Source: Lacibacter sediminis (GTDB lineage Bacteria; Bacteroidota; Bacteroidia; Chitinophagales; Chitinophagaceae). Taken from it: a stretch of DNA of 64,000 nt. The stretch lies in NCBI RefSeq assembly GCF_014168535.1, contig NZ_CP060007.1, positions 3,906,001 through 3,970,000 of the forward strand. The letters run 5' to 3'. Under the pieces are notes generated by a model. It was given only the letters and a program-made list of their open reading frames with translations, ran no database searches and was not told the origin of the DNA. Of the stretch, positions 22,689-42,475 are shown piece after piece. Position numbers and translations under genes: made by a program. The stretch's first letter is position 1; the number at the start of each line of letters is the position of its first letter.

Positions 22689-22880
22689 AATAAGACAAAC
22701 AACTAGAGATGCCGTCGTTCTTCGTATCTCCACGAATCACTCATCACTATAAAATTCACCTTCCATTTATTATCTTGTTCATTCATTGCATGGCTGATGA
22801 ACAACAGCCCGTATAACGAAAGTCATAGATGGAAGTGCGACACCGGGTAGGCAAAAAATGAATCACCAAAAACAATTGCT

Positions 22881-24251: not shown

Positions 24252-24418
24252 CGATAGCAGCACTGCCCCAACAAGTATTTGGCGGTTTTCCGTTGGCCCG
24301 GCGTTTGGTGTAACCTACCGCCGCAGTTAAAACGTATAAAAATATATAAATCCCGGTGGCCACTTTGTGAGACCCCGGGCTTACAAAAAGGATCAAGCAT
24401 TTACTAAACTAATTGCAA

Positions 24419-26080
24419 ATGAAAATAAAAGTTACACTCCTACTTTTTTTTATCCTTCTAATTGATCATTCAGTTCTTTTTGCACAAAAAATTGAAAGAC
24501 CAAATATCCTTTGGATATCGGTTGAAGATATTAGTCCATTGCTTGAAGCATACGGGGACAAAACAGTCAAAACCCCAACGATTGATTGGTTGGCCAAAGA
24601 GGGTATCACTTTTACAAATGCGTTTGCCACGGCAGGTGTGTGTGCACCAAGCAGGAGCTCTATTATAACAGGTATGTATCCCGTTAGTATTGGCACACAT
24701 AATATGCGTACAGGTCCGCATTATGCATACAGAGAACCTGAAGAAGAGACATACAAGACTTATAGATCTTTAAAAGACATTCGTGGAAGAAATGTACCTG
24801 AGTATGCAGCAGTACCCCCGCCCCACGTGAAAGTATTTACAGAATATTTGCGGCTTGCGGGTTATTTCACCAGCAATGCTATTAAAACTGATTATCAATT
24901 CAACCCACCATTTACTGCCTGGGATGAAATTGGGAAAAATGCTCACTATAAGAACAGGGACAAGGGACAACCTTTTTTTGCAGTTTTCAACTTTGAAATC
25001 ACCCACGAATCAAAGGTATTCATGAAGAAAAAAGATCCCATGCTGGCCGATCTTCAAAACCTAAAAATTCCGTCTTACTTTCCTGATATACCGGAAGTGC
25101 GACAGGACGTAGGTCGTGTATATTCAAATATTATAGAACTGGATCAGCAGATTGGGAAACTCCTGGATGAATTAAGAAATGAAAAACTGTTGGATAAAAC
25201 AATCATTTTTTTCTGGTCTGATCATGGAGGCCCGTTGTTACGGCAAAAACGGGCGGTAGGAAATTCAGGACTCAGAGTGCCATTAATTGTTCGGCTACCG
25301 AATGGAACCATGGCTGGTACTAAAGTCAGCGAAATTGTTTCTCTTATGGATTTGGGTCCAACAACTTTATCCCTGGCAGGAATTACTCCTCCCACATATA
25401 TGCACGGGAAAGCTTTTTTGGGTCCGTTCAAAAATAAAGATCCCCATCGGTATACCTTTGGCTCAGCAGATCGATTTGATGAAGCAGCAGATATGAGTCG
25501 CTCTGTAATCGATGGCAGATTTGTCTACATCAGAAATTTCCGCCCAGAGCTCCCATTGATCTATCGCAACACATACCGTGAACAGATCGACATGACTCGA
25601 AAATTAATAGAAATGAATCAACAGGGGCAATTAACAGGAGGCGCTTTGTATATTTTTATGCCAACAAAACCGGAAGAAGAACTGTACGATTTAGCAAGTG
25701 ATCCTTATGAGATTCATAATCTTGCATACCTGCCCAATCATCAATCAAAATTAAGTGAGATGCGTAGCGCTTTAAGTGCATGGCAAGGTGAGATTGGAGA
25801 TCTTGGTTTTATACCAGAATACGACCTGGTAAATATGATGTGGCCTGGTATGATACAACCTGAAACAAAAAAAGTAGATTTTGAAAAAACAGGAAATAAA
25901 TTATTGCTTACCTGTATTACCCAAGGCGCAACGATTGGATATCAGATAGACGATGAAATAGGTAGCAAACGATGGAGAATATACAATGGCCCATTACCAA
26001 TTACATCGTATAGAAAGATTGCTGCAAGAGCTGTCAGAATAGGCTACAAAACATCTGCTATTTCTTCCTTTGAGGGATAG
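24419..26080 (+). CDS. S1-family sulfatase, secreted (sulfamidase-like)
   Basis: A 553-residue type I sulfatase with signal peptide (residues 1-22, VLFAQ). It begins RPNILWISVEDISP and has the formylglycine motif Cys75-Ala-Pro-Ser-Arg79 (GVCAPSRSS), so it needs a cysteine-type anaerobic or FGE maturase. HEITHES-like (FNFEITHES) and SDHGGP carry further metal and substrate ligands. The opening and THNMRT resemble the N-sulfoglucosamine sulfohydrolase group. The last 80 residues look like an FN3-associated or chitobiase C-terminal domain. The ATG at 24419 is preferred over TTG at 24413. It converges with the PUL and may act on the same sulfated glycan. Confidence 0.85.
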   Translation: MKIKVTLLLFFILLIDHSVLFAQKIERPNILWISVEDISPLLEAYGDKTVKTPTIDWLAKEGITFTNAFATAGVCAPSRSSIITGMYPVSIGTHNMRTGPHYAYREPEEETYKTYRSLKDIRGRNVPEYAAVPPPHVKVFTEYLRLAGYFTSNAIKTDYQFNPPFTAWDEIGKNAHYKNRDKGQPFFAVFNFEITHESKVFMKKKDPMLADLQNLKIPSYFPDIPEVRQDVGRVYSNIIELDQQIGKLLDELRNEKLLDKTIIFFWSDHGGPLLRQKRAVGNSGLRVPLIVRLPNGTMAGTKVSEIVSLMDLGPTTLSLAGITPPTYMHGKAFLGPFKNKDPHRYTFGSADRFDEAADMSRSVIDGRFVYIRNFRPELPLIYRNTYREQIDMTRKLIEMNQQGQLTGGALYIFMPTKPEEELYDLASDPYEIHNLAYLPNHQSKLSEMRSALSAWQGEIGDLGFIPEYDLVNMMWPGMIQPETKKVDFEKTGNKLLLTCITQGATIGYQIDDEIGSKRWRIYNGPLPITSYRKIAARAVRIGYKTSAISSFEG

Positions 26081-26166: not shown

Positions 26167-27009
26167 CTATTCAATTTTTAATTGTTCCTTTTGTTCTATA
26201 AATCCAAGTGATTGCAAAAATTCATCAAACTTCGAAACTGTTTTCTTGTAGTATTCAAAATTTTTATAATTGAAGAATCCATGCGGCTGTCCCTCGTATA
26301 AATGAAGCTCACAACGACTGTTTACCTTTTCCATTGCTCCCTGATAATTCTTTGCTGTTTGCACGGGTATTAAATTATCGTTTGTGCCTAAAAATAAAAT
26401 CGTTGGGGGTGCACCCTTTTTTATGTTGTGCATTGGTGAAAAGGCTTGGTAAGCTTTGCCTATTCGTTCATAACCATAACCTCCAGGTCCATTATCGATC
26501 ACAGGATTAAAAAGCGCTAAAGCATTTGGAACACAGCTTATGGATAAATTGTCGGTGCTTTCATTGTAATCAACTATCAGTGCTGTTGCCGCTGCTAAAT
26601 GGCCTCCTGCCGAACCTCCCGATGCAACAATTTTTGATGTATCAATATGAAACCTGTTTGCATACTCCCTGATAAATCTGATTGCTGACTTTGCATCTTT
26701 TAACGACTCGAAAGGTGAAGTTTGATGTTTATTTCTAATCCTGTAATCAACCAAAAAACAGATCATTCCCCGTTGTGAAAAATATTTAGCCTGCGGCTCA
26801 AACTGTTTCATTGAACCCTCAACCCATCCTCCCCCAAAAAAGAAAACAATGGCCGGATATTTTTTTGCCGGATCGATATTACCCGGCTGATATACTTCCA
26901 TAAATAATTTAGTGGTATCAACTTCTTTGTACAATATTCTATCCTGAGAATTGCCGTTTGTATAAGCAGCAATTGAAATCAACAGGAGTAAAATCAGATT
27001 TCGATACAT
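26167..27009 (-). CDS. Alpha/beta hydrolase, carbohydrate-esterase-like
   Basis: A 280-residue exported esterase. Signal peptide to about residue 22 (NGNSQ). The oxyanion loop is FGGGW (58-62), the nucleophile Ser133 in GGSAGG, the acid probably Asp in GTNDNLIP and the base His in GQPHGFF. The order and the HGGGW-like loop match the BD-FAE/acetyl esterase group of alpha/beta hydrolases often found in polysaccharide loci. It follows the second TIM-barrel-like gene by 138 bases on the same strand and may remove acetyl or other acyl groups from the imported sugar. Its inclusion in the PUL transcript is likely but unproved. Confidence 0.82.
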   Translation of the reverse strand: MYRNLILLLLISIAAYTNGNSQDRILYKEVDTTKLFMEVYQPGNIDPAKKYPAIVFFFGGGWVEGSMKQFEPQAKYFSQRGMICFLVDYRIRNKHQTSPFESLKDAKSAIRFIREYANRFHIDTSKIVASGGSAGGHLAAATALIVDYNESTDNLSISCVPNALALFNPVIDNGPGGYGYERIGKAYQAFSPMHNIKKGAPPTILFLGTNDNLIPVQTAKNYQGAMEKVNSRCELHLYEGQPHGFFNYKNFEYYKKTVSKFDEFLQSLGFIEQKEQLKIE

Positions 27010-27147: not shown

Positions 27148-28353
27148 TTACAGCCCATCCAACACTTCCAATGCTTTTTTGCGGAATACATCTGCAGAAA
27201 GTGCAGCGTTGTTGCTTGCTTTATAGTTGAGCAAAAAGCGATTCATCTGCCGGTAATATTTTTGATGCAGATGATACAACGGCATCCGTTCGCCCTGCTC
27301 GTTAATAAGCGACATTTGTTTTGATTCGCCGTTAGTTTCATACTCATTGTTATACATCTGCCAATGCAATGCAAACGGCAAATTCAACTCAAGTGAAATC
27401 TTCATGATCTCCTTTGTTTCATTGTACTGCTTCGTGAATGATTCCGGATTCTTACTATTCGCATGGTAGCCGTATTCACCAATATACACCCTGCGTGAAA
27501 ACGGCAGTCCTTCTTTCGGCTGCAGTTGTTTTTCCAGGTAGTTGAAGATGCTGTTCAACTGTTCTTTCTTTTCACTGTACGTTCTGTTCTTGATTGCTTC
27601 ATAACTGCTGTACGAAACCAAATCCACATTCACATGCGGCAAAATGCTGCTGGCAATACAAGGCTCACCCTTCATGCCTTTCAATACGAGATTTACTTCG
27701 ATGTAATGATAGAGCTGTACATTTTTTGATGCAGTTGCTTTCTTTGCATCATCAATTGCTTTTTGTCTTATCTGAAACCACTTCGTCATGTTCTGAATAT
27801 GTTCCGCAGGCGGAGCAGCTGTTCTGTTGTAATCAGGCAATAAGAGCCAATCGCCTTCCCAGTTGCCAATTAAAAATGTTTTACCGGAGTTGTTGTAAGT
27901 CTTCAACAGGTAAGTAACAAAATCAAACATCTCATCGTACAAACGTTTCTCCTGTTCGGGGTTAATGCCTTTCTTCCAATTGATACCGGTGATGGTGTGC
28001 ACCCAGATAAAAACGTATTTGAAATCCATGTCAACTACTTTCTTGTATTCGGGTGAAGCGTTGAATAACTCCAAGGTAGTTGATGGTTTTTGATGGATGG
28101 TTAATGCATAACTTTTCGGTGAATTGGCACCCAACGAAATTTTCAAAATGTTCGATCCCATACCCCGTACATGCTTTGCCTGTTCCAGCAATCTTGATTC
28201 GTTTGTAAACTGGTACTGTCCGCCAATCGTGTTGGTGCCCAAGATAAAATTGTAAGGCTCCATTGGTAGGATGCTATCATAGGGAACAAGCTTTTGCCCA
28301 TGTACAACAGTGAACAGTAACACGCAAACAAATAGTATAACAGACTTCTTCAT
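27148..28353 (-). CDS. Exported TIM-barrel-like putative glycoside hydrolase, PUL paralogue 2
   Basis: A 401-residue protein with signal peptide (residues 1-19, VVHG). It is closely related throughout to the 39985-41217 product, sharing IGNWEGDWLL, WFQIRQKAIDDAK, YHYIE, SYSSYEAIK, SRRVYIGEYGY and FALHWQMYNNEYE. Strand-like segments each end in polar residues, as in a (beta/alpha)8 barrel. Glu166 (NWEGD) and Glu293 (GEYG) are placed like the acid/base and nucleophile of clan GH-A, and Trp331 like the conserved Trp of strand 8. I do not recognise a named family. The ATG at 28353 gives the signal peptide and lies 4 bases after the GH2 stop, so it is translated from the PUL mRNA. Confidence 0.7.
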   Translation of the reverse strand: MKKSVILFVCVLLFTVVHGQKLVPYDSILPMEPYNFILGTNTIGGQYQFTNESRLLEQAKHVRGMGSNILKISLGANSPKSYALTIHQKPSTTLELFNASPEYKKVVDMDFKYVFIWVHTITGINWKKGINPEQEKRLYDEMFDFVTYLLKTYNNSGKTFLIGNWEGDWLLLPDYNRTAAPPAEHIQNMTKWFQIRQKAIDDAKKATASKNVQLYHYIEVNLVLKGMKGEPCIASSILPHVNVDLVSYSSYEAIKNRTYSEKKEQLNSIFNYLEKQLQPKEGLPFSRRVYIGEYGYHANSKNPESFTKQYNETKEIMKISLELNLPFALHWQMYNNEYETNGESKQMSLINEQGERMPLYHLHQKYYRQMNRFLLNYKASNNAALSADVFRKKALEVLDGL

Positions 28354-28357
28354 GTAA

Positions 28358-31222
28358 TTACTTTTTAATGGATACAACGCCCGTTACATTATAACCGGCG
28401 ATCTTCATTTTTTCGATTGATTTATCAGCTGCCATTTCAAGCAGGATTATTTTTTTTTCACCCGGGAGCAATGTAAAATATCCGTCGCTGAAATAAGCCG
28501 GCAGTATTATCTGCTCTGCTTTATCCAGTGCATCTAGTTTGATACCAACAGCAGGATGTTTGCTTTTATTTTCCAGTTCAATTTTGATCTGTCCGTTTGC
28601 AAGACGCACTGCTTTACCTGAAATCGTTACAACAGGCAACTCATTGAACGCTTTAAAATGACCGGTAGTTGTATTGGCTTTCCAATATTCATTTGCAGCC
28701 AACACATTTCCTTTTTTATCTTTTATTGCCAGACGTACCAAATAATTAACAGGCAGGTTTACTTCATCCAATGTTGCAGTAAACAGATCAGCTTTTGCAT
28801 TTGCTGCAACATCAACAGGAGCATTTTTGCTTTGTACTAATTTTCCATCAATCGTGTATACCTGCATCACTGCAATCGCATCCTGTACATTTTGCAAAGA
28901 AGTATTCACTGCAATCACCTGACTGTTGTGCAGATTCATTTGAATATGCAAGGGCTCGCATCCTTTTTTAGAACCGTAAAATGAACCATGCGTTTGGAAA
29001 TCCCATGAATAGGTTTGCCAGATCATGCTGGGCCATGCAGGATGACTCATCCACAGCAACACACCACTGCTGTTGTTCCAGAGTTTATTGTTCCATGCTT
29101 CAAAGATGGCTCGGTGACTATCGTAGTTGATGAGTTGAATCTTACGGTTAAAATCATCCAGACTGGTCGAAGCTCCGTACAAACTATCTGCGGTACGCAG
29201 GTAACCTTCGAGGTTTTGATTATTGGTATGCAGATCGTGGTAATGCCATACATCATTGATCGGCCATTGATCTTCCGGTGCAATAAACTTGCGGATAGAG
29301 CTTGCTTCAGGAACAGAGAAAGTACCGATCTCTGTAGTGAAACCATCGCCTTGTTTCGTGAAGTAATCTTTATTGTTCACAAAGAAATGCCATGGACCAC
29401 TGGGCCGCAGATTTATTTCTCTTGAATTGCCAATGTAATGACGAGTACCATCTTCTTTTGCTACTTGTGTTGCCAGATCGTTTTCAATACCCACCGGTGC
29501 ATAGCCTTCATTTCTCGGGCACCAGATAGCAATTGATGCATGATTGCGGTAACGCCTGATCATGTCTAAACTGTTTTCCAAAAACAATTGATCATCGCTT
29601 GGGTTAAGATTAAAGCCTTCGGTGCTGAGCCAGAAATCATTCCACACCAGCATGCCGTATTCATCTGCCAATTCAAAGAACACAGGCTCTGTACTCTCAC
29701 CTGTCCAGTTACGGATCATATTGAAATGCGCTTCACGATGCAAACGAAATGCAGGCTCCAGGCTTTCTCTACTCACTTTCTTCATCGCATCATCAATACC
29801 CCAGTTACCACCTTTGCAATACACTGCAACAGCATTTACTTTGATCACCAAAAACGGATTATCGCTGTTCGGTATTACGTCCATCTTTTCCAATGGAAAT
29901 TCTTTCCGTAGTGTAGGTATAAAAATTTTGTCTTTAAATGCACGGCGATTTACATAATCAATAATGGGCTTATCAGCTTTGACATCTGTTGGACTGTATG
30001 TAAAGCGGATCGCTTTTTTCTCTTCTGTATCGGCCATCATTTCATAGGAATATTCTCTGATACCAAAACGAAATTGTTTGATCTCTTCCACCCCTTTTGC
30101 ATCTGTTACTTTAATGGTAGCATTGTATAAATTGGGTAAGCCATAACCATTGGGCCACCACAGGCGTGGATTTTTCACATTGAGTGATGCATCATCTGCA
30201 GGCGTAAACGTAACAGGCAATGTTTGTCCAGGTGCCAGTTTTACTTTCTTCTGCACCGCTACTCCTTCAAATGAAAAATGAATCGTTGCTTCCTGTGCCT
30301 GTGCACTGTGATTGGTGAGTGTTGTACGCAATGTAACATTAGCACTTGTTGTATCAGGCAACGGCAGATCAGTAATTACCTGTGGATCGGATGAAGTAAC
30401 ACTACCGGTGAAAGAAAGTTGTACATCCTGCCAGATGCCCATGTTACGGTCTCTGATGCCCGGTATCCAATCCCATCCTTCTGTTGAAAAGAATGTGGGG
30501 CCATCCAATGTATGTACACCACCATTCTTTCCCATACCGGATAATGCTGATTGCTCATCAGGAATTCCAGGATTCGGTGGAGGTATCATTTGCACAAGTA
30601 GCACATTGCGTCCGCTTGTTTTTAAATGATCTGTTACATTAAACTTACCACGTACGAATGCGCCTTTGATATCACCAAGATATTTACCATTCAACCAAAC
30701 ACGTGCTTTGTAGTTGATGCCGTTGAACCAAAGCCATGCTATTTTTCCATTTTCATTTTTTGGTGTTTCAAATGTTGTACGGTACCACCAGTCTTTGCGG
30801 CACAAAGAATCGGTGATGGCCATATTATTCAAACCAAAATAAGGATCGGGAAATTTTCCTGCTGCTACTAACGATGTTAATACTGTGCCCGGCACTACTG
30901 CATCATACCAGCCTTTGCTGTTAATAGCATCAGTAAACACAGACGCATTGCCCAACAGATTTGTTAGTTCATCTGTGAGTTCCCATCCGCTGGCAATACG
31001 ATAGTTTGCATTACCTATCGCTGTTGCCTCTCCTGCTTTTCCCGATCTTGGTTTTTCAATTGCAGTTTGAAAAGGTGCTTTACCTTTTGGTAATGTTTCT
31101 ACCGGCTGTTTTTTTGTTAATCCAAAATTGGGTTGCTTTTGAGCAAACAAATCGCTCTGGCAAAACATCAATAAAACAACAAAGACAGCAGCTCTACTAT
31201 TTTTATGTGCAGAATGTTTCAT
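28358..31222 (-). CDS. Glycoside hydrolase family 2 enzyme (beta-mannosidase/exo-beta-glucosaminidase-like)
   Basis: A 954-residue exported GH2 enzyme. The signal peptide ends near residue 28 (DLFAQ). It shows the jelly-roll sugar-binding domain (DWWYRTTFE, AWLWFNGINYKARVWLNG), an Ig-like domain (about 290-390), the barrel from about 400 with acid/base Glu572 in CPRNEGYAP and probable nucleophile Glu631 in TTEIGTFSVPE, and beta-rich C-terminal domains. GWDWIPGIRDRNMGIW is typical of the subgroup holding exo-beta-D-glucosaminidases and endo-beta-mannosidases rather than beta-galactosidases. The start is ATG 31222, after which the signal peptide follows. Within the PUL it would trim desulfated oligosaccharides in the periplasm; the true sugar is unknown. 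Confidence 0.85.
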   Translation of the reverse strand: MKHSAHKNSRAAVFVVLLMFCQSDLFAQKQPNFGLTKKQPVETLPKGKAPFQTAIEKPRSGKAGEATAIGNANYRIASGWELTDELTNLLGNASVFTDAINSKGWYDAVVPGTVLTSLVAAGKFPDPYFGLNNMAITDSLCRKDWWYRTTFETPKNENGKIAWLWFNGINYKARVWLNGKYLGDIKGAFVRGKFNVTDHLKTSGRNVLLVQMIPPPNPGIPDEQSALSGMGKNGGVHTLDGPTFFSTEGWDWIPGIRDRNMGIWQDVQLSFTGSVTSSDPQVITDLPLPDTTSANVTLRTTLTNHSAQAQEATIHFSFEGVAVQKKVKLAPGQTLPVTFTPADDASLNVKNPRLWWPNGYGLPNLYNATIKVTDAKGVEEIKQFRFGIREYSYEMMADTEEKKAIRFTYSPTDVKADKPIIDYVNRRAFKDKIFIPTLRKEFPLEKMDVIPNSDNPFLVIKVNAVAVYCKGGNWGIDDAMKKVSRESLEPAFRLHREAHFNMIRNWTGESTEPVFFELADEYGMLVWNDFWLSTEGFNLNPSDDQLFLENSLDMIRRYRNHASIAIWCPRNEGYAPVGIENDLATQVAKEDGTRHYIGNSREINLRPSGPWHFFVNNKDYFTKQGDGFTTEIGTFSVPEASSIRKFIAPEDQWPINDVWHYHDLHTNNQNLEGYLRTADSLYGASTSLDDFNRKIQLINYDSHRAIFEAWNNKLWNNSSGVLLWMSHPAWPSMIWQTYSWDFQTHGSFYGSKKGCEPLHIQMNLHNSQVIAVNTSLQNVQDAIAVMQVYTIDGKLVQSKNAPVDVAANAKADLFTATLDEVNLPVNYLVRLAIKDKKGNVLAANEYWKANTTTGHFKAFNELPVVTISGKAVRLANGQIKIELENKSKHPAVGIKLDALDKAEQIILPAYFSDGYFTLLPGEKKIILLEMAADKSIEKMKIAGYNVTGVVSIKK

Positions 31223-31442
31223 GAAAAAATGGATGGTTCGATTTGTTACAGAATAATCAACTGATGGCAATGCTGATACCTACGGTACATCTAAAGGATG
31301 AATAAATCTTTTGCATCATCTAATTGCAAAAAAGTGTACTTCTGATAAACAGCGAATGCGATTGACAAAGCATCAACGATTGTGTGTTTAATAACAAAGG
31401 ATGTGAGAGCCCATTTAAAATACTGTTCTTAATTTCTTTCTT

Positions 31443-31487
31443 GGCGGTCTGTGGCCGGTGTCTCCACCGACCACTGCGGACCGTCGC
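31443..31487. repeat. REP-like imperfect palindrome in the gap between sulfatase and GH2 genes
   Basis: Nested stem: inner tggccggtg/ccaccgacca around tct, outer ggcggtctg against cggaccgtcgcc with a bulge. It is GC-rich inside an AT-rich gap and has no T-run on either side, so it is unlikely to be a plain terminator. The rest of the 330-base gap 31223-31552 holds no gene that I can support. Confidence 0.55.
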
Positions 31488-31552
31488 CGTTGCTATCAAA
31501 CGCTACCTACTGCTTGCCAAAAGAATCGATGTTTTATTTTTTAAACAGGCTT

Positions 31553-33115
31553 TTAATACAATCCCTTCGTGCCATAATCTCCTCTCTTTTCAGTGATGGG
31601 CTTTAACGGAATTTGTAATCCACCGGTTTCCTGTAGCCACTTCCATAGTTCGTTGCGCATGCGTGCAATTTCAGGTTGCCATGCCGGATGACGATACAGA
31701 TTTTTCTTTTCTTCGGGATCGGTACTCAAATCATAAAACTCGGATACATCCCAAAGACCGGGATAGAATATAAATTTATGTGCACCTTCTCTTACACCTA
31801 ACGTTGTTGGAGTTTGCGGATACGAGAACTCCCAGTAGTATTCATAAAATGCTTTGTTGCGCCAGTTTACTTGTTTATCCTGCAGCAATGGCAAGAACGA
31901 TTGTCCCTGAATATTTGCAGGTTTGGTAATGCCTGCCACTTCAAGTACAGTTGGTGCAATATCAATTCCCTGGATGATCTGTTCAAGTGGCTTACCATTG
32001 TGCGACATGCCGGGTGCATACACCAGCAACGGAACTTTCTGGCTTTCTTCGTACATATTGCGTTTGTCGATGAGGCCATGTTCACCCATTAAGAAACCAT
32101 TGTCGCCCATGTAAATGATCATCGTATTCTCAGCAATACCTAACTCTTCCACTGATTTTCTAATGCTGGCAATACTTTCATCAATCGCCAATAATGTTTC
32201 GCAATAGCGGTAATAAAAATCATCGAACTGCACACGGCCATCGTACATAAAATCTACACCATGCCAGCTGTTACGCTGTGCCCACACCCATTGCGGAATA
32301 TCTTTTACGTTGTAATTCGTATCGTTTTTTACCATCGCAGCAATCGGACTTTTGCAAACATCACCATGCAGCTTACTCTTTTCTGTTGCTGTTAAGTTGA
32401 TGGTAGAAGGATAATTGATGGGCTTCCCATGGTACTTATTACGATGACGTGGTGCAGGCATAAATTCATCATGCACTCCTTTATGCGATACATACATGAA
32501 GAATGGTTTATTCTTCGGTTGCTGACTCATCCATGTAGTTGCATGTTCGGTTAACAGATCAGTAATGTATGTACTGTCTTTGTATTGTACCCGCTGACCA
32601 TTGATGTTGAGCAACGGATTGTAATACACACCCTGCCCTCTGAAACTTTCCCAATGATTGAATCCTTTTTGCGGATCATCACCAGCATGCCCCATATGCC
32701 ATTTGCCGAAGAATGCAGTGCGGTATCCTGCCTTCTGTAAATACTCCGGAAAGAAATTTAAATTATCAGGCAGTGGCGAAAAATTATCAACCACTTTATG
32801 CGTGTGTGCATACTGCCCTGTAAGAATGGATGCACGTGATGGAGAACAAAGTGCAGTAGTTACTGTTGCGTTACGTACCCACACGCCCTGCTTTGCTAAC
32901 TGATCCATCGCCGGTGTTTCGAGCCAGGGAACTTTTCCGGTGAAACCCATAAAATCGAACCGATGATCATCGGTTAAAATGAAAATAACATTCATGGGCT
33001 TTGGCGGCTTCGTGTCCTGCTCACGATCAAACCCGAACGCAAGTGTAACTGCAATGGAAAACACAGCAATTAATATTGCTTTGCGGCTACTGTTTTTCTT
33101 CTTCTGATTTTGCAT
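31553..33115 (-). CDS. S1-family sulfatase of the PUL
   Basis: A 520-residue type I sulfatase. An N-terminal signal or anchor (residues 12-30) is followed by MNVIFILTDDHRFDFMG, which supplies the metal-binding aspartates. The formylglycine motif is Cys90-Ser-Pro-Ser-Arg94 (LCSPSRAS), with KWHMGH near residue 135, HKGVHDEF, and the late MGEHGLIDKRNMYEES. The MGEHG-x-xDKR-x-YEES phrase is typical of N-acetylglucosamine-6-O-sulfatase and related S1 subfamilies. It lies 200 bases downstream of susD across a strong hairpin, and 330 bases before the GH2 gene, so it may have its own expression level within the locus. Confidence 0.88.
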   Translation of the reverse strand: MQNQKKKNSSRKAILIAVFSIAVTLAFGFDREQDTKPPKPMNVIFILTDDHRFDFMGFTGKVPWLETPAMDQLAKQGVWVRNATVTTALCSPSRASILTGQYAHTHKVVDNFSPLPDNLNFFPEYLQKAGYRTAFFGKWHMGHAGDDPQKGFNHWESFRGQGVYYNPLLNINGQRVQYKDSTYITDLLTEHATTWMSQQPKNKPFFMYVSHKGVHDEFMPAPRHRNKYHGKPINYPSTINLTATEKSKLHGDVCKSPIAAMVKNDTNYNVKDIPQWVWAQRNSWHGVDFMYDGRVQFDDFYYRYCETLLAIDESIASIRKSVEELGIAENTMIIYMGDNGFLMGEHGLIDKRNMYEESQKVPLLVYAPGMSHNGKPLEQIIQGIDIAPTVLEVAGITKPANIQGQSFLPLLQDKQVNWRNKAFYEYYWEFSYPQTPTTLGVREGAHKFIFYPGLWDVSEFYDLSTDPEEKKNLYRHPAWQPEIARMRNELWKWLQETGGLQIPLKPITEKRGDYGTKGLY

Positions 33116-33190
33116 ACAATAATTTTTTCAAGGCCTTTATACCTGAATGATTTTTTCAGATTAAAAGCTGTAAACTATTTTCAAGTAGTA

Positions 33191-33226
33191 ATAAAGGTGC
33201 TTAAATAAACATTTAAGCACCTTTAT
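33191..33226 (-). promoter_or_regulatory. 16-bp perfect stem-loop between susD and the sulfatase gene
   Basis: Stem ataaaggtgcttaaat/atttaagcacctttat, loop aaac. No T-run follows on either strand, so it does not look like an intrinsic terminator. The position just after susD suggests an mRNA-end-protecting or processing structure that would leave more susCD message than enzyme message. Confidence 0.6.
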
Positions 33227-33314
33227 ATAAATCATCAGCTACAATATTTCCAACCATTAATTCTTACTGCGAGGACGAACCTGTTAATCGATGATTCAAC
33301 TTTAGGAATAAGCA

Positions 33315-35096
33315 TTAATTGTATAACGGATTTTCAACCAAACTTGGATTGTCGGCAATTCTGTCGATACCCAATGGTAAGTAGTAATGACGTGGTTGAA
33401 ATACCCTTGCAGTACCTTCTGCATTTTTTAACGTGATGATATATTTTTTTGCATCAAAATCATACACATAGTTCAAGCCTTGTAAACGCTTTCCGTTCAA
33501 CTCCTGTTCTGCAATGCGCCATCTGCGTAAATCCCAATATCTATGCTCTTCAAAAGCCAGTTCCACTTGTCTTTCCTGACGGATGTTGGCTTCGGTTAAG
33601 GCTGTGCGAAGTGGCATGGCAGCTCTTGTTCTGATCCGGTTTATAGCAGTAAGCGCTTCGGTATTTTTATTCAGATAAAAAGCTGCTTCTGCATAGTTGA
33701 GCAAAATTTCACCCAATCTGAATACAATAAAATCGGTGCTTGATTGTCCGCTTGCTGCAGGCGTAAGTGCTTCATCGCAACGCTTACGTACATGCACACC
33801 TGTTTTTTGCGTATTGCGGTTGGGTGCTTTCGCATAAAAACCATCGGGGAATTGTGCTGATACAGAATTCGGAATAAGGAATGTTTCACTGGTATTTGTA
33901 ACCACCTGGCCACTTGCATTTCTGTATCGGGTAGCAGAATGGAAAAACACTTTCTTGCCTTGCCAGATACATTCAGGATAAAAAGTTGATGCCCTGAAAC
34001 GGGGATCACGCTTTCCAAACAATGAATCGATATCATGCAACCTTGTATTTGTAAGCAATGTGCGGTTCATCACGCCAGATCTTCCGTCCTGGTAATCGAA
34101 CAGATCCATAAATTCAAGGAACACATTAAAGTTCGAGTTCCAACCCGATGTAAAACCAGCGGGTGTACACAATGCATCCCAGGAATGTCCTTTGTTGAGT
34201 GTTGCATCCCATTTAACGCCAAAGATCACTTCCGGATTATTGTTTTCATCTGTAAACAACTGCGTGAAATTTTTAACCGGATCAGTAGACACCTTGTTAT
34301 ACAAACTAAATGCAGGATTATCCATAATTGCTTTTGACGCATCCATCGCAGCAGTAAAATATTTATCTGCTTCGCTGGCGGGAATACCTACTACTCCATC
34401 CAGTGCTACTGTACCAAATCTTGCAATACTGCCTGCATAAAGCATCGCCCTGCTCTTTAATGCAAGTGCAGCAAATTTTGTGGGTCTGCCATAATCGTTA
34501 CCCGGATACGAAGCCGGTAACAATGCCGCTATCTCGTCCATTTCTTTACCAATGAAATCATACACCTCTGCTTCTTTGTTTCGAACGGGATATAATTCTG
34601 ATTGGGGGTCAGATAAACTTTGAACTTTTGTAATAATGGGCACACCACCAAAACGTTTCACCATTTGATGATAGATAAACCCACGCAGAAAGCGGGCTTC
34701 ACTTATTTTCTGATCTTTATACGATTGCTCAAATGATGAGCCATTCACACCGTTGATAAATTCATTGATTTGCCTGATGGCGGTGTAAGCCCAGTAATCG
34801 AGTAAACCTGAACCTGTGTTATCGTAAATTTTAATCGAAGCAATGTAAGGATCCTGCCAATCGCCGAAAGCCCTGCATTCGCCACCCGGTCCTGCTAATA
34901 AACCCATTCTGAAATTTTCCTGGTTACCCAGTTCCTGGAATTTAGTACGGTCGTATAAACTAAGCAGGTTTGCTTCTATCAGATTTTTATCTTTAAAAAC
35001 CGCTGTTTCAGCAATCATGTCGAGCGGTTGTATATCTAATACTTTGGTACAACCTACCAGTCCTGTTATAATGAAAGCAATGATTATATTTCTCAT
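33315..35096 (-). CDS. SusD/RagB-family glycan-binding outer-membrane lipoprotein
   Basis: A 593-residue lipoprotein with a signal ending LVGC (lipidated Cys16). It has the SusD helical TPR scaffold in the first half (AIRQINEFINGV, ISEARFLRGFIYHQMVKRFGG, FAALALKSRAMLYAGSIARFG) and the C-terminal motif LAFEEHRYWDLRRWRIAEQ with the closing YYLPLGIDRIADNPSLVENPLY. SusD lids the SusC pore and delivers oligosaccharides. It begins 10 bases after the susC stop, which confirms co-translation. The ligand cannot be read from the sequence; sulfatases in the locus suggest a sulfated glycan. Confidence 0.95.
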   Translation of the reverse strand: MRNIIIAFIITGLVGCTKVLDIQPLDMIAETAVFKDKNLIEANLLSLYDRTKFQELGNQENFRMGLLAGPGGECRAFGDWQDPYIASIKIYDNTGSGLLDYWAYTAIRQINEFINGVNGSSFEQSYKDQKISEARFLRGFIYHQMVKRFGGVPIITKVQSLSDPQSELYPVRNKEAEVYDFIGKEMDEIAALLPASYPGNDYGRPTKFAALALKSRAMLYAGSIARFGTVALDGVVGIPASEADKYFTAAMDASKAIMDNPAFSLYNKVSTDPVKNFTQLFTDENNNPEVIFGVKWDATLNKGHSWDALCTPAGFTSGWNSNFNVFLEFMDLFDYQDGRSGVMNRTLLTNTRLHDIDSLFGKRDPRFRASTFYPECIWQGKKVFFHSATRYRNASGQVVTNTSETFLIPNSVSAQFPDGFYAKAPNRNTQKTGVHVRKRCDEALTPAASGQSSTDFIVFRLGEILLNYAEAAFYLNKNTEALTAINRIRTRAAMPLRTALTEANIRQERQVELAFEEHRYWDLRRWRIAEQELNGKRLQGLNYVYDFDAKKYIITLKNAEGTARVFQPRHYYLPLGIDRIADNPSLVENPLYN

Positions 35097-35106
35097 AAAC
35101 TTTTAT

Positions 35107-38100
35107 TTAAAATGTTAATCGCAATCCTCCTGCAATATTTTTATGAATCGGATAGTTACGTCCTTCACCACTTAAGTTCGCATCAGGATCAAATGTGTTC
35201 TTGTAAAATCCAAGCTTGCTGAACGTAAGGAGGTTTGTAGCAGATGTAAATACCTGCAGATTTTTTATCCCTACCTTTTTTACCCAATTTCCACTGAAGC
35301 TGTACGATAAATTGACATTCCGCAAACGAATGAATGTTGCATCTTTCATCCAGAAATCCGAACGCTTAATGTTATTGGGGTTTAAGCCCAATGAAGCTGC
35401 AGGCAATTGTGCCTTTGGATTGATGTTCTGCGTTGGATTTGCAGGATCGGGCTGCCAACGATATGTATAATGATAATCGTAAGGAATTGATTCGTTTGAA
35501 AACATGGATGCCGATGCACCGGTTACATAAAAATTAAAACCTGTTGACCCTTGCCATAACATTTCCAGCGACAGGCCTTTGTAAGTAGCGCCCACCACTA
35601 AACTGTATACTACTTCCGGAAAGGTTCCTTTACCAATCACATCCTGATCACGCCAATCGAGAATACCATCACTATTCAAATCAACATAACGGATATCGCC
35701 GGGACGCAATGTTGTATTACCTACTCCATCCTGGTTAAATGCAAGTTTATCAATTTCTCCTTGCGACATAAAAATACCATCCGACTTATAGCCCCATGAA
35801 AGGTTAGCTGATTTACCTGTCAGTTGATAAATTCTGATTTGATCAGGGTCGGTATAAGCTGTTTCATCTCTGTACTCCCACTTGTTTTGTGTGAGTGTAA
35901 ACGTAGGCATGATTGAAAGTTGTACACCGCTGATCTTTGGGCGGTAATCAATCATCAGTTCAAAGCCTCTGTTACTTTGTTTGTTCAGATTTACCGGAGG
36001 TAAGGTTGCGCCAAATGTTGAAGGCACTGCCCTTTGTTGCGAAGCAAGGATTCCATCTCTTAATCTGTAAAACACGTTTCCTTCAAATACCAACTTGCCT
36101 TTCCACAGTGTTAAATCAATACCGGCGTTATAGTTAGTTATACTTTCCCATGTAATATCGGGATTTGGAAGACCTGTGGTACTGATGGTTTTGTAAAACG
36201 TATTTCCCATGATGTAACCACCTGCATCAATATCATACCCGGTAAGATAACTGAACTGGCTTGTACCATCGTTACCCGACTGTCCATAGGAAAGTCTGAG
36301 TTTACCATTCGAAAGCCATGATGATGCATTATCCATGAAATTTTCCTTCGAGAATACCCAGCCAACTGATACGCCCGGGAAATAACCCCATCTTGAGTTC
36401 TTAGGAAAATTTGCACTGGCATCAGCTCTTAAAATAAATTCTGCCAGGTACTTGCCTTCGTAATCGTAATTTAATTTACCGATGTATGCTACTCTTGACA
36501 TTTGACTTTGTGTTCCGGTATTATCCTGGAAGTCCTGGCCACCGGAAAACAGTTGCTGTATGGATGGTGACAGCAAATCACGACGAAAAGCCATTAATGA
36601 ATTACCTCCGTTTTTAAGTTGTTCGGCAATACCCATTGCGCTGATGCGATGGTTACCAAATTCACGATCGTAATTCACTTTCAGCATTGGATAAATCTGG
36701 AAATAACGGGCATTGGTTTCTCTGAGTGAAATGAAATTGCCCATGTTGGCCATGTAGGTATACACCTGTGTTTCATAATCATAATCGTATACTTCTGCAG
36801 GTACGTTAAATACTTTGGTATAATCTGCAGATTGACTTACCAATAAATCGGCACCAACACTTAAGCCGGGTACAAAAGGTAATTTATAATTAAGCCCTAC
36901 CTGGCCATTAAAGAAATTAGAACTGGTTCGGTTGTATCCTCTACGTTCTGCATCTATACGCAGTAACGGGTTGCGGCCTTGAAAACCTGTATATGCATTT
37001 CTGGTCAGGTCAGGCAGGTAGGGATTGTAACGTGGTTGTGCTGTGCTAAAATCTACCATTACATCTTCAATTGAACCTACCTGCTGATCCTGACCAAAAC
37101 GATATTGCATATCAAAACGCAAACTCAAATTCTTTGCAATCGTTGCATCTACGTTTAATCTTGTATTGTAGCGTTTATAAAAATAATCTCCTGAGGTGAA
37201 AACACTTTGCTGATCGGTCATACCCAGCGAACCAAAGTATTTTAAAGCAGGAGTTCCACCGCTTACAGTAATACTCTGTTGCAACATGGGTGCACCGGTA
37301 CGAAATATTGCATCACGCCAGTTATATGATTTGAAGTTTGCTTCAGTACCTGCTTTGTACTTCTGTACAACTTCCTCGGTAAATTCGCCGGGACTCAAAC
37401 CATAGTTGAGTGCAGCTTCTCTGCGTAACTCAGCCCAGTCGCCTGCGTTTACTGTATTCTGAAAAGCAGAGGGCATTTGATACGTGTAAGTACCCGTGTA
37501 CGTAATTTGTGGAGCACCTGTTTTACCACGTTTGGTTGTAACAAGTATTACACCGTTACCTGCTCTTGCACCATAAATGGCGGCAGATGCATCTTTCAAT
37601 ATTGAAACAGATTCAATATCATTCGGATCGATACGGTTAAAAGGAGTTGGCAAACCATCCACAATTACCAGTGCATTTCCATAACCTCTGATCTGCAGAC
37701 TGGCATTATCTTCACCAGGTAAACCACTTGCTGTTTTGGAAAGAAGCCCCGGCATTCTGCCTACGAGTAACTGAGAAGTATTAGGAACAGGTGCCGACTG
37801 TAATACTTTTGCACCTACCTGTGCAATGGCTCCGGTAACAGTTGCTTTCTTTTGCGTACCGTAACCTACAACTACAATTTCCTGCTGCTGAATTTCCTGT
37901 TTGCTTAAGGTAACCTGCACGCTTGTCATTCCTTTTACACTAACTTCTTTTGCTTCCATGCCCACAAAAGAAATGACCAGTATCATTGATGAGTTATCCG
38001 GTACACTGATTGTAAACTCTCCGTTGGCATCGGTATTAACTCCTTTGCCGGTTCCTTTGATATTTACAGATGCACCCGGCAGTGGTGTTCCGCTTTCATC

Positions 38101-38583
38101 TGTTACTTTTCCTTTTACAGTAATGTCAGCTGGTGGCGATTCCTTTGTAACATTTGCAGTTGGTGCTGCTGTCACCTTACGTTTGATTACTATTGTATTT
38201 TCTACAATGGTATACGTAAGCGGCGATTTCTGCAAGCATTCGTCAATGGCTTCCTGCAGCGGAACATTTTTAGCTTCAACGCTTACATTGCCCACCAACT
38301 TCATCATTTCAACAGTGCATATGTAATTATAGCCTGTTTGCTTTCTGATTTCTTTCAATACTTTCTGGAAGGGCGCATTCTTTACTGAAAGCGTTACAGT
38401 TTGTGAGTGGGCTTCTGCAAACACCTGCATACTGGCCACGAAGAGAAAAACAGCAATAAGTTTCATAATCAATAGTGCCTTCCTGACAGGAGGGCATGTT
38501 TTGGATAGTTTTCGGCTTTGCCGAAAACTAAAAGCAGTAAATGGCATAACTTCGTTTTTGGGTTTAACGATAAACAGTCTCAT
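35107..38583 (-). CDS. SusC/RagA TonB-dependent transporter with N-terminal STN signalling domain
   Basis: A 1158-residue outer-membrane transporter. An N-terminal extension leads to a signal sequence (MKLIAVFLFVASMQVFAEA), then an STN domain (FQKVLKEIRKQTGYNYICTV, PLQEAIDECLQKSPLTYTI) that contacts the FecR anti-sigma factor. A carboxypeptidase-like beta-sandwich follows (VKGKVTDESGTPLPGASVNI), then the plug (VIVDGLPTPFNRIDPNDIES, SILKDASAAIYGARAGNG) and a beta-barrel ending GGLRLTF. ATG at 38583 is used; the frame is open to a TTG at 38634, and ATG 38466 is the latest start that keeps the signal. STN-bearing SusC next to FecI/FecR means transport is coupled to transcription. Confidence 0.95.
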   Translation of the reverse strand: MRLFIVKPKNEVMPFTAFSFRQSRKLSKTCPPVRKALLIMKLIAVFLFVASMQVFAEAHSQTVTLSVKNAPFQKVLKEIRKQTGYNYICTVEMMKLVGNVSVEAKNVPLQEAIDECLQKSPLTYTIVENTIVIKRKVTAAPTANVTKESPPADITVKGKVTDESGTPLPGASVNIKGTGKGVNTDANGEFTISVPDNSSMILVISFVGMEAKEVSVKGMTSVQVTLSKQEIQQQEIVVVGYGTQKKATVTGAIAQVGAKVLQSAPVPNTSQLLVGRMPGLLSKTASGLPGEDNASLQIRGYGNALVIVDGLPTPFNRIDPNDIESVSILKDASAAIYGARAGNGVILVTTKRGKTGAPQITYTGTYTYQMPSAFQNTVNAGDWAELRREAALNYGLSPGEFTEEVVQKYKAGTEANFKSYNWRDAIFRTGAPMLQQSITVSGGTPALKYFGSLGMTDQQSVFTSGDYFYKRYNTRLNVDATIAKNLSLRFDMQYRFGQDQQVGSIEDVMVDFSTAQPRYNPYLPDLTRNAYTGFQGRNPLLRIDAERRGYNRTSSNFFNGQVGLNYKLPFVPGLSVGADLLVSQSADYTKVFNVPAEVYDYDYETQVYTYMANMGNFISLRETNARYFQIYPMLKVNYDREFGNHRISAMGIAEQLKNGGNSLMAFRRDLLSPSIQQLFSGGQDFQDNTGTQSQMSRVAYIGKLNYDYEGKYLAEFILRADASANFPKNSRWGYFPGVSVGWVFSKENFMDNASSWLSNGKLRLSYGQSGNDGTSQFSYLTGYDIDAGGYIMGNTFYKTISTTGLPNPDITWESITNYNAGIDLTLWKGKLVFEGNVFYRLRDGILASQQRAVPSTFGATLPPVNLNKQSNRGFELMIDYRPKISGVQLSIMPTFTLTQNKWEYRDETAYTDPDQIRIYQLTGKSANLSWGYKSDGIFMSQGEIDKLAFNQDGVGNTTLRPGDIRYVDLNSDGILDWRDQDVIGKGTFPEVVYSLVVGATYKGLSLEMLWQGSTGFNFYVTGASASMFSNESIPYDYHYTYRWQPDPANPTQNINPKAQLPAASLGLNPNNIKRSDFWMKDATFIRLRNVNLSYSFSGNWVKKVGIKNLQVFTSATNLLTFSKLGFYKNTFDPDANLSGEGRNYPIHKNIAGGLRLTF

Positions 38584-38693
38584 TGGTTTGATTGCTTGTT
38601 GAAGAGCCCGAATCTTTCGCCGGGAGTGTTGCAACCACTTCCGGTTTTTTTTATGGCTCTTGCTACGATATTCGTTTTACATTGTTCTGTTTT

Positions 38694-39893
38694 TTATGGC
38701 ATAACAATTATTTTTTTGCCTTCAATGATAAATCGCACTTCGCCTGTTTGCTGCAGCATTGAAAGCACCTGCGACAGCTTTACATTACGGGAAATGCCAC
38801 CAATAAAATGCGTGCTGATGTTGCCTTGGTAACTTATCTCCACATCGTACCAACGGGACAGTTGTCTCATCACCGATTTAATATCACTGTTCTCAAACTG
38901 AAAATTTCCATCCTTCCAAGCTACCGTTTCTTCCAGATTTGCATCATTAACGATCTTCATGTTACCCGATGGTTTCAGTTGTGCCTGTTGGCCGGGTTGT
39001 AAAAATTTGCTTTCACTTGCTGCAGTTACTTTTACTCTTCCTTCCAGCAAGGTGGTGCGTACAGTTTCTTCATCGGTATAACTGTTGATGTTGAAATGTG
39101 TACCGAGCACTTCTACTTCCATTTGATTCAATTGTACTTTGAATGGCCGTAATGCGTCTTTGGCAATTTCAAAATAAGCTTCACCGGTTATTTCCACACG
39201 GCGTTCTTTACCGCTGAACACAACAGGATACTTTAAGGATGAAGCTGCATTGAGCCATACTTTGCTTCCATCGGGTAAAGTAATTTTATACTGTCCTCCA
39301 CGGGGTGTTTGTAATAAATTATATGCAATTTCTTCGGTTGCATTATCCTGGCTGTTGTACAACAGTTGTCCATCTTCTTTCTTGATGATCTCTGTTGTTC
39401 CCTGCTGTGCAAGCATACCATTGCCGGCACTATCGAGAACAATAGAACTTCCATCGGCCAGGGTTAATACAGCCCTGTCGCCACCGGGTAAATGATCTTG
39501 ATGAAGTTGTGGTTGTGTATTTTTTGCAACGGTTGTATTCTTCTCTTTTTGATTCGTTAAAAGAAACACAGAAGAAAGAATCAGTAAAAGAATTGCTGCG
39601 GCAGCTACCCAACGGAAACGTGCAAAACGACCGATGACAGGTTGTTCGTCTGTTTCAAAAGTTGCTGAAAGTTTTTGTTTCGCTTCCTGTATTTTCTGAT
39701 CCCAGTCGGCAGCAGCAATCAATGGTGCATCTGTTTTTACAGACAGCCAAAGCTGCTTCAGTTCTTCATTCAATTGTGTTTCATCAGGTTGTTCGTTCAA
39801 TAACCGCCACAGCTCTGCATACTCAGCAGAGGTTAACCGGTTATCCAGGTATTTATGTATAAGATCGGAGAGATTCTCCTTGTTATCAGTCAT
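38694..39893 (-). CDS. FecR-family anti-sigma factor (DUF4974)
   Basis: A 399-residue membrane anti-sigma factor. The cytoplasmic N-terminus (residues 1-88) contains the sigma-binding helices (LIHKYLDNRLTSAEYAELWR). One membrane helix lies at about 91-110 (WVAAAAILLLILSSVFLL). The FecR domain (about 200-300) has PRGGQYKITLPDGSKVWLNA and GEAYFEIAKDALRPFKV, and a C-terminal DUF4974 (VKLSQVLSMLQQTGEVRFII) meets the STN domain of SusC. It precedes susC by 110 bases. Unusually, a TIM-barrel lipoprotein gene separates it from its sigma factor. Confidence 0.95.
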   Translation of the reverse strand: MTDNKENLSDLIHKYLDNRLTSAEYAELWRLLNEQPDETQLNEELKQLWLSVKTDAPLIAAADWDQKIQEAKQKLSATFETDEQPVIGRFARFRWVAAAAILLLILSSVFLLTNQKEKNTTVAKNTQPQLHQDHLPGGDRAVLTLADGSSIVLDSAGNGMLAQQGTTEIIKKEDGQLLYNSQDNATEEIAYNLLQTPRGGQYKITLPDGSKVWLNAASSLKYPVVFSGKERRVEITGEAYFEIAKDALRPFKVQLNQMEVEVLGTHFNINSYTDEETVRTTLLEGRVKVTAASESKFLQPGQQAQLKPSGNMKIVNDANLEETVAWKDGNFQFENSDIKSVMRQLSRWYDVEISYQGNISTHFIGGISRNVKLSQVLSMLQQTGEVRFIIEGKKIIVMP

Positions 39894-39984
39894 ATTGTAA
39901 AATAAAATGTGCTAAATAAATGACGACCGGAAAGATGACATGTACCAATGCGCTCTCAATTTTTTTGAAAATAAACAACAGTTA

Positions 39985-41217
39985 CTAAAGCGATGACAAC
40001 ACCTGCAGTGCTTTTGTTCTGTATTCATCTGTTGTTGGATACCTGTTATTTTTCTGCTTTTCGTCTTTCAGGTAAGTATTCATGGCCTTATAAAAGTTGT
40101 TGTGCAGCACATACTGGCGTGTTTTGGCACCGGATTCGTTAATCAACGACATTTGTTTCGATACCCCATTCTCGTATTCATTGTTATACATCTGCCAGTG
40201 TAAGGCAAACGGAAGATTCAGTTCAAATGCAATCTTCATAATTTCCTTTGTTTCATCGTACTGCTTTTGAAACGTTTCGGGCTTTGAAGCATTGGCCTGA
40301 TAGCCGTATTCGCCAATAAATACTCTTCTGCTGAAAGGCAATCCGCTTTTTGGTTTCAGTTTCGATTCGAGGTAGGTGAAAATCGCTTGCAAATCTGTTT
40401 TTTTCTGTACAGCAGTTTTATCCTTGATCGCTTCATAACTGGAGTAAGAAATAAGATCGATATCAACATTCGGTATCACACTTTCAGCCACACAAGGTTC
40501 ACCATTCATTCCTTTCAACACCAGGTTTGCTTCGATGTAATGATACAGCGACACATTTTTTGCTGTTGACGCCAGCTTTGCATCATCAATTGCTTTTTGT
40601 CTTATCTGAAACCACTTGCTCATGTTTGCAAGCAATTCCGGCGCAGGGGTAACGGTTCTGTCGTAACTGGGAATTAACAGCCAATCGCCTTCCCAGTTGC
40701 CAATTAAAAATGTTTTACCTGAGTTATCGTATGTTGTAAGCAAATGAGAAACGAAATTGTACATTTCATCATACAATACTTTTTCTTCGGCAGCGGTGAG
40801 GGCCTTCTTCCAATCCACATTGGTTAAGGTATGCACCCATAAAAAGATGTATTTAAAATCCATATTGCACACCGTTTTATAGGGCAGGTTATTTGTAAAC
40901 AGTGCTAACGTGGTGGTACTCTTTGTAACCTCATTGATCCCATAAATATCCGGGGAATTTTTACCCAAGGTAATTTTCAGGATATTCGACCCCATCTCCC
41001 GCACTTTCTTTGCCTGCTCCACCAGTTTGTTTTCTGAAGTAAACTGGTAACTGCCCGATATGGCGTGTGTACCCAGCACAAAATTGTACGGCTCCAGTTG
41101 CTGAAGCGTATTGGTTGGTACTTCGGTGGGGGTATCGTTCACAACGCCTTTTTTGCCACAGGAAAATAAAAAGACGATCAGAACCGATAACAGCAGGAGT
41201 GGTATTCTTTTCTTCAT
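39985..41217 (-). CDS. TIM-barrel-like putative glycoside hydrolase lipoprotein, PUL paralogue 1
   Basis: A 410-residue lipoprotein with signal LLLLSVLIVFLFSC and lipidated Cys20, so it is likely surface- or membrane-attached, unlike its paralogue at 27148-28353. Candidate catalytic residues are Glu176 (IGNWEGDW) and Glu303 (FIGEYGY), followed by ALHWQMYNNEYE. By eye well over half the residues match the paralogue without large gaps. The ATG at 41217 is chosen because the upstream extension has no signal character. It sits between the ECF sigma gene and fecR. A glycan-hydrolase or glycan-binding role is inferred from fold pattern and locus; the family is not one I can name. Confidence 0.7.
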   Translation of the reverse strand: MKKRIPLLLLSVLIVFLFSCGKKGVVNDTPTEVPTNTLQQLEPYNFVLGTHAISGSYQFTSENKLVEQAKKVREMGSNILKITLGKNSPDIYGINEVTKSTTTLALFTNNLPYKTVCNMDFKYIFLWVHTLTNVDWKKALTAAEEKVLYDEMYNFVSHLLTTYDNSGKTFLIGNWEGDWLLIPSYDRTVTPAPELLANMSKWFQIRQKAIDDAKLASTAKNVSLYHYIEANLVLKGMNGEPCVAESVIPNVDIDLISYSSYEAIKDKTAVQKKTDLQAIFTYLESKLKPKSGLPFSRRVFIGEYGYQANASKPETFQKQYDETKEIMKIAFELNLPFALHWQMYNNEYENGVSKQMSLINESGAKTRQYVLHNNFYKAMNTYLKDEKQKNNRYPTTDEYRTKALQVLSSL

Positions 41218-41278
41218 GTTAATTTGGTATGTGCCAGATAACTGACGAAGGAAAAGAAAGCATGTACCAATGCTGCCC

Positions 41279-41884
41279 CTACTTTTTTTCAAAATAAATG
41301 GCAAGCAGCAGAACCAGTGCGTTGTTTTTTTCCAGGTATTCCCGGATAAACTGCAGGGATGCAGCCAAGTGATTGCGCACCGTATTGGACGATAAATTGA
41401 GAGTTGCGGCTATTTCAGCATAGCTCAGATCTTCGTAATGTCGGAGCTCAAACACTTTTTTCCGTTGGGGAGATAATTGATTGATTGCTTCCTTTATTAA
41501 GGCATCTGTGTTTTTCAACAGTAACCGGCTATCGGCATTATCGTCGGCGGGAGCTTCAGCCATTGCTTCCCATAAGGCCTGCTGCAGGGCCAGGCTGCGT
41601 TTGGCCGCCCGGAAAAAATCAATGGCTTTATTATGAGCTACCTTGTATAAAAAAGCTTCGAAGTTTTGTATTCCGGTGATCGCTTCCCTTCCATGCCAGA
41701 GTTTTAAAAAAACATCGAGTACTATTTCCTCTGCTACTTCTTTTGATTTGGTTACTCTGTATAAATATGCAAATAACTGATTCCGGTACTTCCCGAAAAG
41801 CAGGTTAAAAAAATGCTCATCACCCTCCCTGATTTTTAAAAGGCAGTATTCGTCTTCATATAATGGCTTGGCTTTATCGTTCAT
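41279..41884 (-). CDS. FecI-like ECF sigma factor of the PUL
   Basis: A 201-residue ECF sigma factor of the Bacteroidota FecI-like group. Region 2 includes FNLLFGKYRNQLFAYLYRVT and AEEIVLDVFLKLW; region 4 includes LSPQRKKVFELRHYEDLSYA and the HTH AATLNLSSNTVRNHLAASLQ. The C-terminal tail has a hydrophobic ending (ALVLLLAIYF), common in this group. ATG at 41884 is used rather than TTG at 41890. It is the first gene of the locus and would drive expression of the SusC/SusD genes when FecR is signalled by the STN domain. Confidence 0.93.
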   Translation of the reverse strand: MNDKAKPLYEDEYCLLKIREGDEHFFNLLFGKYRNQLFAYLYRVTKSKEVAEEIVLDVFLKLWHGREAITGIQNFEAFLYKVAHNKAIDFFRAAKRSLALQQALWEAMAEAPADDNADSRLLLKNTDALIKEAINQLSPQRKKVFELRHYEDLSYAEIAATLNLSSNTVRNHLAASLQFIREYLEKNNALVLLLAIYFEKK

Positions 41885-42475
41885 GAGCAATCATCGGAGT
41901 TCCCTTAAAATCAAAAATAAAAGGAAAATAGTGAAATAAACTAAAGACTATAATGACATAAATTTCTACCCGAATTAATTTTCATTATGTAACAACGATA
42001 ACACAGTTCTAGTTCAAAATTTGTTCAAAAGATGGGCGCTGGTATTCGTCAGGTTCTATGCGGATAAAAAATTTTGAAAAGTTGCCTTTTTTGTTCAGGA
42101 ATAATTTATCAATTCATATGAAATAAGAAACTACTATTAATAAGTTTTCCGAACGGTTACTTAGAATATCCTGTTTTGTCCGTAATCAGTACTAATTCAT
42201 TTATTATAGCTGTATTTTCATTACCCAATCTGCATATCAGGCTATATTAATTTTAAGCATTATGTAAGTTTGTTTTTACAAGAGAGTTCCAACTTTGTAA
42301 ACCATGTACACTCAACTTGCCCTGGGTATTGCCTGCTTAAATTTTCTAACAGTTCGTCAACTCACTTTTTATCAAAGTGTTTCAGCAAATTTCCTGCATG
42401 ATGCCCAATGGCATAAACAGGCGAAAAATTGTAATTTTCTTATTTATAACCAAGACCATTTATATTGTTGAATAT
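41885..42475. other. Intergenic region upstream of the PUL sigma factor, no gene seen
   Basis: About 590 bases between divergent genes, AT-rich throughout. A minus-strand TATTTTTG box (41912-41919) matches the Bacteroidota -7 consensus 28 bases before the sigma start, but no -33 TTTG stands at the right distance. I see no ORF, RNA or strong hairpin. Confidence 0.5.

Follow-up and report, generated by a model that had tools for sequence, protein, structure and literature searches.

Two paralogous proteins encoded in one PUL of Lacibacter sediminis, the exported TIM_A and the lipoprotein TIM_B, form a family of clan GH-A that may be new, as judged by sequence comparison against Pfam, NCBIfam, PHROGs and PDB rather than CAZy/dbCAN. 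Both are very probably GH-A-type hydrolases, and with modest confidence we favour the fuller reading that they are retaining beta-glycosidases of a sulfated, probably beta-mannose-containing glycan. This is a candidate family within a known clan and not a new kind of system. The window, i.e. the whole stretch of DNA that was analysed, comprises 64,000 nucleotides (contig NZ_CP060007.1, positions 3,906,001 to 3,970,000), and its relevant features are collected in Table 1.

Table 1 Coordinates of the paralogues, their predicted functional residues and the surrounding PUL genes within the window.
Feature	Coordinates	Strand	Remarks
ECF sigma factor	41279..41890	minus	
TIM_B	39985..41217	minus	lipoprotein paralogue, predicted GH-A-type barrel, 410 aa
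TIM_B Cys20 codon	41158..41160	minus	lipidation site of lipobox LFSC
TIM_B Glu176 codon	40690..40692	minus	predicted acid/base, motif NWEGD, after strand 4
TIM_B Glu303 codon	40309..40311	minus	predicted nucleophile, motif GEYG, strand 7
FecR-type anti-sigma factor	38694..39893	minus	
SusC	35107..38634	minus	with STN domain
SusD	33315..35096	minus	
Sulfatase	31553..33115	minus	S1-type, CSPSR motif
GH2	28358..31270	minus	beta-mannosidase/exo-glucosaminidase-like; catalytic E588 and E647 present; start codon uncertain
TIM_A	27148..28353	minus	exported paralogue, predicted GH-A-type barrel, 401 aa
TIM_A Glu166 codon	27856..27858	minus	predicted acid/base
TIM_A Glu293 codon	27475..27477	minus	predicted nucleophile
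Esterase	26167..27009	minus	BD-FAE/acetyl-esterase-like alpha/beta hydrolase
Second sulfatase	24413..26080	plus	S1-type, CAPSR motif, PUL edge, opposite strand

The initial annotation had described the two proteins as members of one PUL that are closely alike throughout, and this was borne out; both genes lie on the minus strand at the positions given. In a BLASTP comparison 244 of 397 residues were identical (61%, with 76% similar, 516 bits and one gap), a likeness that, judged by this alignment, is far beyond chance, and the motifs IGNWEGDWLL, GEYGY and ALHWQMYNNEYE are common to both. The numbering given for the proposed catalytic glutamates (E166/E293 in TIM_A, E176/E303 in TIM_B) was correct, with GAA as the codon of all four, and the N-termini agree with the view that one protein is lipid-anchored and the other free: TIM_B has the lipobox LFS-C20 and TIM_A a plain signal peptide (...VVHG-Q). 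The lipobox cysteine is followed by GKKGVVND in TIM_B, with the first acidic residue at +9, and by TKVLD in SusD of the same PUL. A putative split of labour between the outer surface (TIM_B) and the periplasm (TIM_A) is plausible.

Comparison with the Lacibacter cauensis orthologues gave dN/dS values of 0.03/0.67 (~0.05) and 0.06/0.72 (~0.09) for the two genes. These low ratios indicate purifying selection, and both genes are therefore selected as proteins. They are the sole family members in the complete 5.1-Mb Lacibacter genome (further rows of the same-genome profile search matched only the T9SS-tail end of the profile and were not accepted as members). In the tree, TIM_A and TIM_B fall into separate supported clades. 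Both clades contain Lacibacter and two further Chitinophagaceae, and the Pedobacter members belong to that of TIM_B. The duplication is older than these lineages, and retention of both copies argues against their redundancy. Another Chitinophagaceae genome contains a TIM_B gene fragment of 89 aa (L023:1501-1767, minus), apparently a decayed remnant.

The surrounding genes form a co-oriented run on one strand in the order ECF sigma factor, TIM_B, FecR, SusC, SusD, sulfatase, GH2, TIM_A and esterase, with intergenic gaps of 4-282 bp (4 bp between GH2 and TIM_A). The SusC/SusD pair, the ECF/FecR regulator, the sulfatases, GH2 and the esterase together define a PUL, in agreement with the earlier assignment. 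The C-x-P-S-R motif is retained in both sulfatases, and a copy of the esterase with 67-68% identity occurs in an Aestuariivivens PUL (L013/L041). The location of TIM_B between the ECF sigma and anti-sigma genes (38694-41890) is an unusual spot for an enzyme; the same order was observed in L. cauensis and UBA10646 (L001, L002) and is absent from L008. Near the PUL edge (19896-24251) lies an Eco57I-like N6 adenine methylase/restriction gene, followed by a gene whose 456-aa product has no Pfam match.

A single scan across 84,980 species genomes yielded 15 related loci, and more distant members were recovered through whole-genome searches and from neighbouring genes. A profile that included T9SS tails gave spurious matches and was therefore trimmed to the barrel; the barrel-only alignment comprises 32 members with 22-95% identity to TIM_B. 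Members were present in 8 of 197 genomes of Lacibacter's family and 3 of 199 of Hyunsoonleella's family, and a sample of 395 Bacteroidota genomes contained none except in the window's own genome, so the family is rare. The features kept across the alignment are N-W-E-G-D after strand 4, E-x-N after strand 5, S-[YWF]-S in strand 6, G-E in strand 7 and W in strand 8.

The glutamates of N-W-E-G-D and G-E are retained in 31 of the 32 diverse members, even at 22% identity. Only L030 departs from this; it is one sequence on a long branch, with M-Q-Y-G-D and G-D in place of the two motifs, and has thereby lost both proposed catalytic glutamates. Such joint loss is expected if they act as a pair. This protein (L030:3477-4697, minus; MQYGD/GDIG) is possibly a natural pseudoenzyme. 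Several members are large multidomain proteins with type IX secretion tails (L036:6226-10017, L037:9613-11529 and L028:4451-7342, all minus), one with a G8-like domain; found in Pedobacter and in one Chitinophagaceae genome, they make up a divergent branch. The Thalassotalea copy (L015:9890-12024) is split across two reading frames of a draft assembly, through either a frameshift or an assembly error.

A first AlphaFold2 model, built from 16 sequences, reached a pLDDT of 81 with a disordered N-terminus. The second (35 sequences, N-terminus removed) had a pLDDT of 93.5 and a pTM of 0.92, and is a complete (beta/alpha)8 barrel with all eight strands. The initial annotation had named a different fold beforehand as grounds for giving up the proposal; the predicted barrel is instead nearest to clan GH-A enzymes, to which all its top solved matches belong. 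The best of these are GH1, GH2, GH5, GH39, GH157 and GH164 structures (Z about 19-20.6 over 270-300 residues); Foldseek concurs, with PslG, GH5, GH10 and GH164. GH2 beta-glucuronidases and galacturonidases are also among the fold matches, and the viral structures matched were GH5-like glycosidases and unrelated barrels.

In the model, strand 4 spans residues 169-173, with E176 three residues further, and strand 7 spans 299-304 and contains E303. This placement would follow the clan GH-A rule that the catalytic glutamates lie at the C-terminal ends of strands 4 and 7, and together with the conservation described above it upholds the assignment of acid/base and nucleophile made earlier. An asparagine before the acid/base is usual in clan GH-A, albeit not universal (GH26 differs), and it normally contacts the sugar 2-hydroxyl. 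Here Trp175 precedes E176 and Asn174 stands one position further back (in 31 of the 32 members), an arrangement that, as read from the alignment, is a departure from the habit of the clan. In the beta-mannosidase Bs164 (GH164), Asn159 before the acid/base Glu160 binds O2 of mannose (PMC7105311).

The proposal that the pair falls outside known families also held in Pfam, NCBIfam, PHROGs and the PDB sequences. No family member matched a Pfam glycosidase model (including GH5, for which 35 members were searched), TIM_A and TIM_B found no family in NCBIfam or PHROGs, and PDB sequences gave no match even with family profiles. A Pfam TatD_DNase match (E 0.01-0.02) was discarded, being below the cut-off, partial and not common to the family. 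In the open-access literature no described enzyme of this family was found.

Among the families tested, GH5 alone gave a significant profile-profile match (E of 4.7e-5 with GH5 proteins from related genomes, versus 0.13-0.94 for five control families), in which VFIGEYG was aligned onto the GH5 nucleophile motif. GH5 shares with the paralogues the barrel fold and GE-[FY]-G at strand 7, but they lack a Pfam GH5 match at every level reported, have N-W-E-G-D in place of the GH5 N-E-P and carry an additional invariant E229. By our own ungapped count from the strand start, E176 would fall on the E of N-E-P and W175 at its Asn, where the program placed a gap. The neighbouring GH2 gave no signal in the profile comparison (E 0.18-0.25), and we do not claim that it is related in sequence. 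GH164 is similar in its GH-A barrel (Z 19.2), in the glutamates on strands 4 and 7 and in a Trp located 38-39 residues beyond the nucleophile (W341 in TIM_B, Trp336 in Bs164), whereas Bs164 has trimerisation and beta-sandwich domains, Asn159 before Glu160 and no sequence match (PMC7105311). The GH39/PslG, GH157, GH1 and GH2 barrels have the GH-A fold (Z 19-20.6), but are about 8-14% identical when aligned by structure and show no sequence-level match.

The gene context of the relatives bears on the substrate. In most of them sulfatases and SusC/D adjoin the family genes; the Chitinophagaceae and Pedobacter copies have a nearby GH2 (50-88% identical to that of the window) and sulfatase (45-95%), and Sphingomonas has only a GH2 (40%). 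Five flavobacterial PULs (L009-L013) contain three family members in tandem (about 430, 410 and 820 residues; the longest has a type IX secretion tail), together with an SSF transporter, sulfatases and a GH130 (87-91% identical among them), for which beta-1,2-mannan phosphorylases are the closest solved relatives. GH130 is absent from the PUL of the window, and the Chitinophagaceae, Pedobacter and Sphingomonas loci have a GH2 in its stead. The fully read Hyunsoonleella PUL encodes a phosphohexomutase, a sulfatase-maturing FGE, five sulfatases and a mannose-6-phosphate isomerase (ManA) that scores above the curated cut-off. A conserved PUL with three tandem members, GH130, an SSF transporter, HTCS and many sulfatases was observed in L039 and L040 (Hyunsoonleella), L009 and L011-L013, and among the genes scanned in it no other recognised backbone-cleaving glycosidase was found.

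GH130, the phosphohexomutase and ManA plausibly provide a complete route from beta-mannosides to fructose-6-phosphate. This route is the main reason for proposing a mannose-containing substrate, which we infer to be somewhat probable. The proteins would then act by retaining double displacement, with E303 of strand 7 (E293 in TIM_A) as the nucleophile at the anomeric carbon and E176 (E166), which closely follows strand 4, as the acid/base; W341 of strand 8 probably forms a sugar-stacking floor. The substrate would most likely be a polysaccharide that bears sulfate and ester groups and is rich in beta-linked mannose. TIM_A and TIM_B would cut it into oligosaccharides for uptake by SusC/SusD; the sulfatases, the esterase and GH2 would then trim these, and in flavobacteria GH130 phosphorolysis, the phosphohexomutase and ManA would take the last steps.

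The same type of enzyme acting on a sulfated amino-glycan (a glucosamine- or GlcNAc-containing polymer) instead of a mannan is rather unlikely. In Pfam, the Ig_GlcNase domain of GH2 outscores its Ig_mannosidase domain, and the exo-glucosaminidase CsxA is among the solved relatives of this protein, yet beta-mannosidases are its best solved relatives and score above CsxA. Among solved structures, the window sulfatase is closest to a GlcNAc-6-sulfatase and a mucin-desulfating sulfatase, and the Pedobacter PULs carry GH116 (ROK kinases occur in both Pedobacter and Sphingomonas), whereas GH130 in the flavobacterial PULs and the mannose-6-phosphate isomerase of Hyunsoonleella speak for mannose. It is the Ig_GlcNase domain, the GlcNAc-6-sulfatase-like sulfatase and GH116 that keep an aminoglycan alive as a rival. 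Quite unlikely is another sulfated glycan of algal or bacterial origin, containing uronic acid or galactose, with the GH130 and mannose genes serving a side chain or a second substrate. Some distant members do occur in other settings, beside KduI/KduD-like genes (G067, by our own reading of the sequences) or SASA-type esterases (G177), and the beta-glucuronidases and galacturonidases among the fold matches point the same way; however, these distant members form a separate, deep branch of the tree, and close relatives have no uronate genes in the stretches read.

It is very improbable that TIM_B is a non-enzymatic lipoprotein in which the GH-A fold serves to bind or sense glycans. Its place between sigma and anti-sigma genes in Lacibacter and UBA10646 would suit a sensor, and in L030 the family includes a protein devoid of both glutamates, but neither paralogue nor any close relative has lost the glutamates, the motifs of strands 6 and 8 or E229, and in L008 TIM_B adjoins TIM_A, away from the sigma/anti-sigma position. 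A GH99/GH195-like alpha-mannanase was also considered, GH99 motifs likewise joining W and E, and set aside: the listed fold matches are beta-acting GH-A enzymes with no GH99 among them, although this absence is no proof. In a Polaribacter PUL for diatom sulfated alpha-mannan, sulfatases and the unusual glycosidase GH195 act on the sulfated mannan; GH195 is described as GH99-related and alpha-mannan-cleaving, and GH130 is unmentioned in the text of that paper (PMC13063451). The Lacibacter PUL is similar in belonging to Bacteroidota and in combining sulfatases with an unusual glycosidase, but its barrels resemble beta-acting GH-A enzymes whereas GH195 is alpha-acting.

Returning to retaining beta-glycosidases, we tentatively consider it possible, somewhat short of probable, that they constitute an uncatalogued GH family in which N-W-E-G-D replaces the usual N-E and which supplies backbone cleavage of a sulfated beta-mannan-type glycan, with three tandem paralogues in marine flavobacteria and two in freshwater/soil Bacteroidota. 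Little is known about enzymes that open the backbone of sulfated mannans and glycans like them. Should the family be confirmed, it would be a sequence marker for such cleavage, its enzymes could be used as tools for the structural analysis of sulfated mannan-like glycans, and it would make it possible to test how an enzyme of clan GH-A copes without Asn next to the acid/base. Finally, secreted proteins without a confident Pfam family adjoin family members at L003:8616-9908 and L028:3135-4352; both sit in sulfatase- or esterase-bearing clusters, and the one in L003 is conserved in Pedobacter loci.
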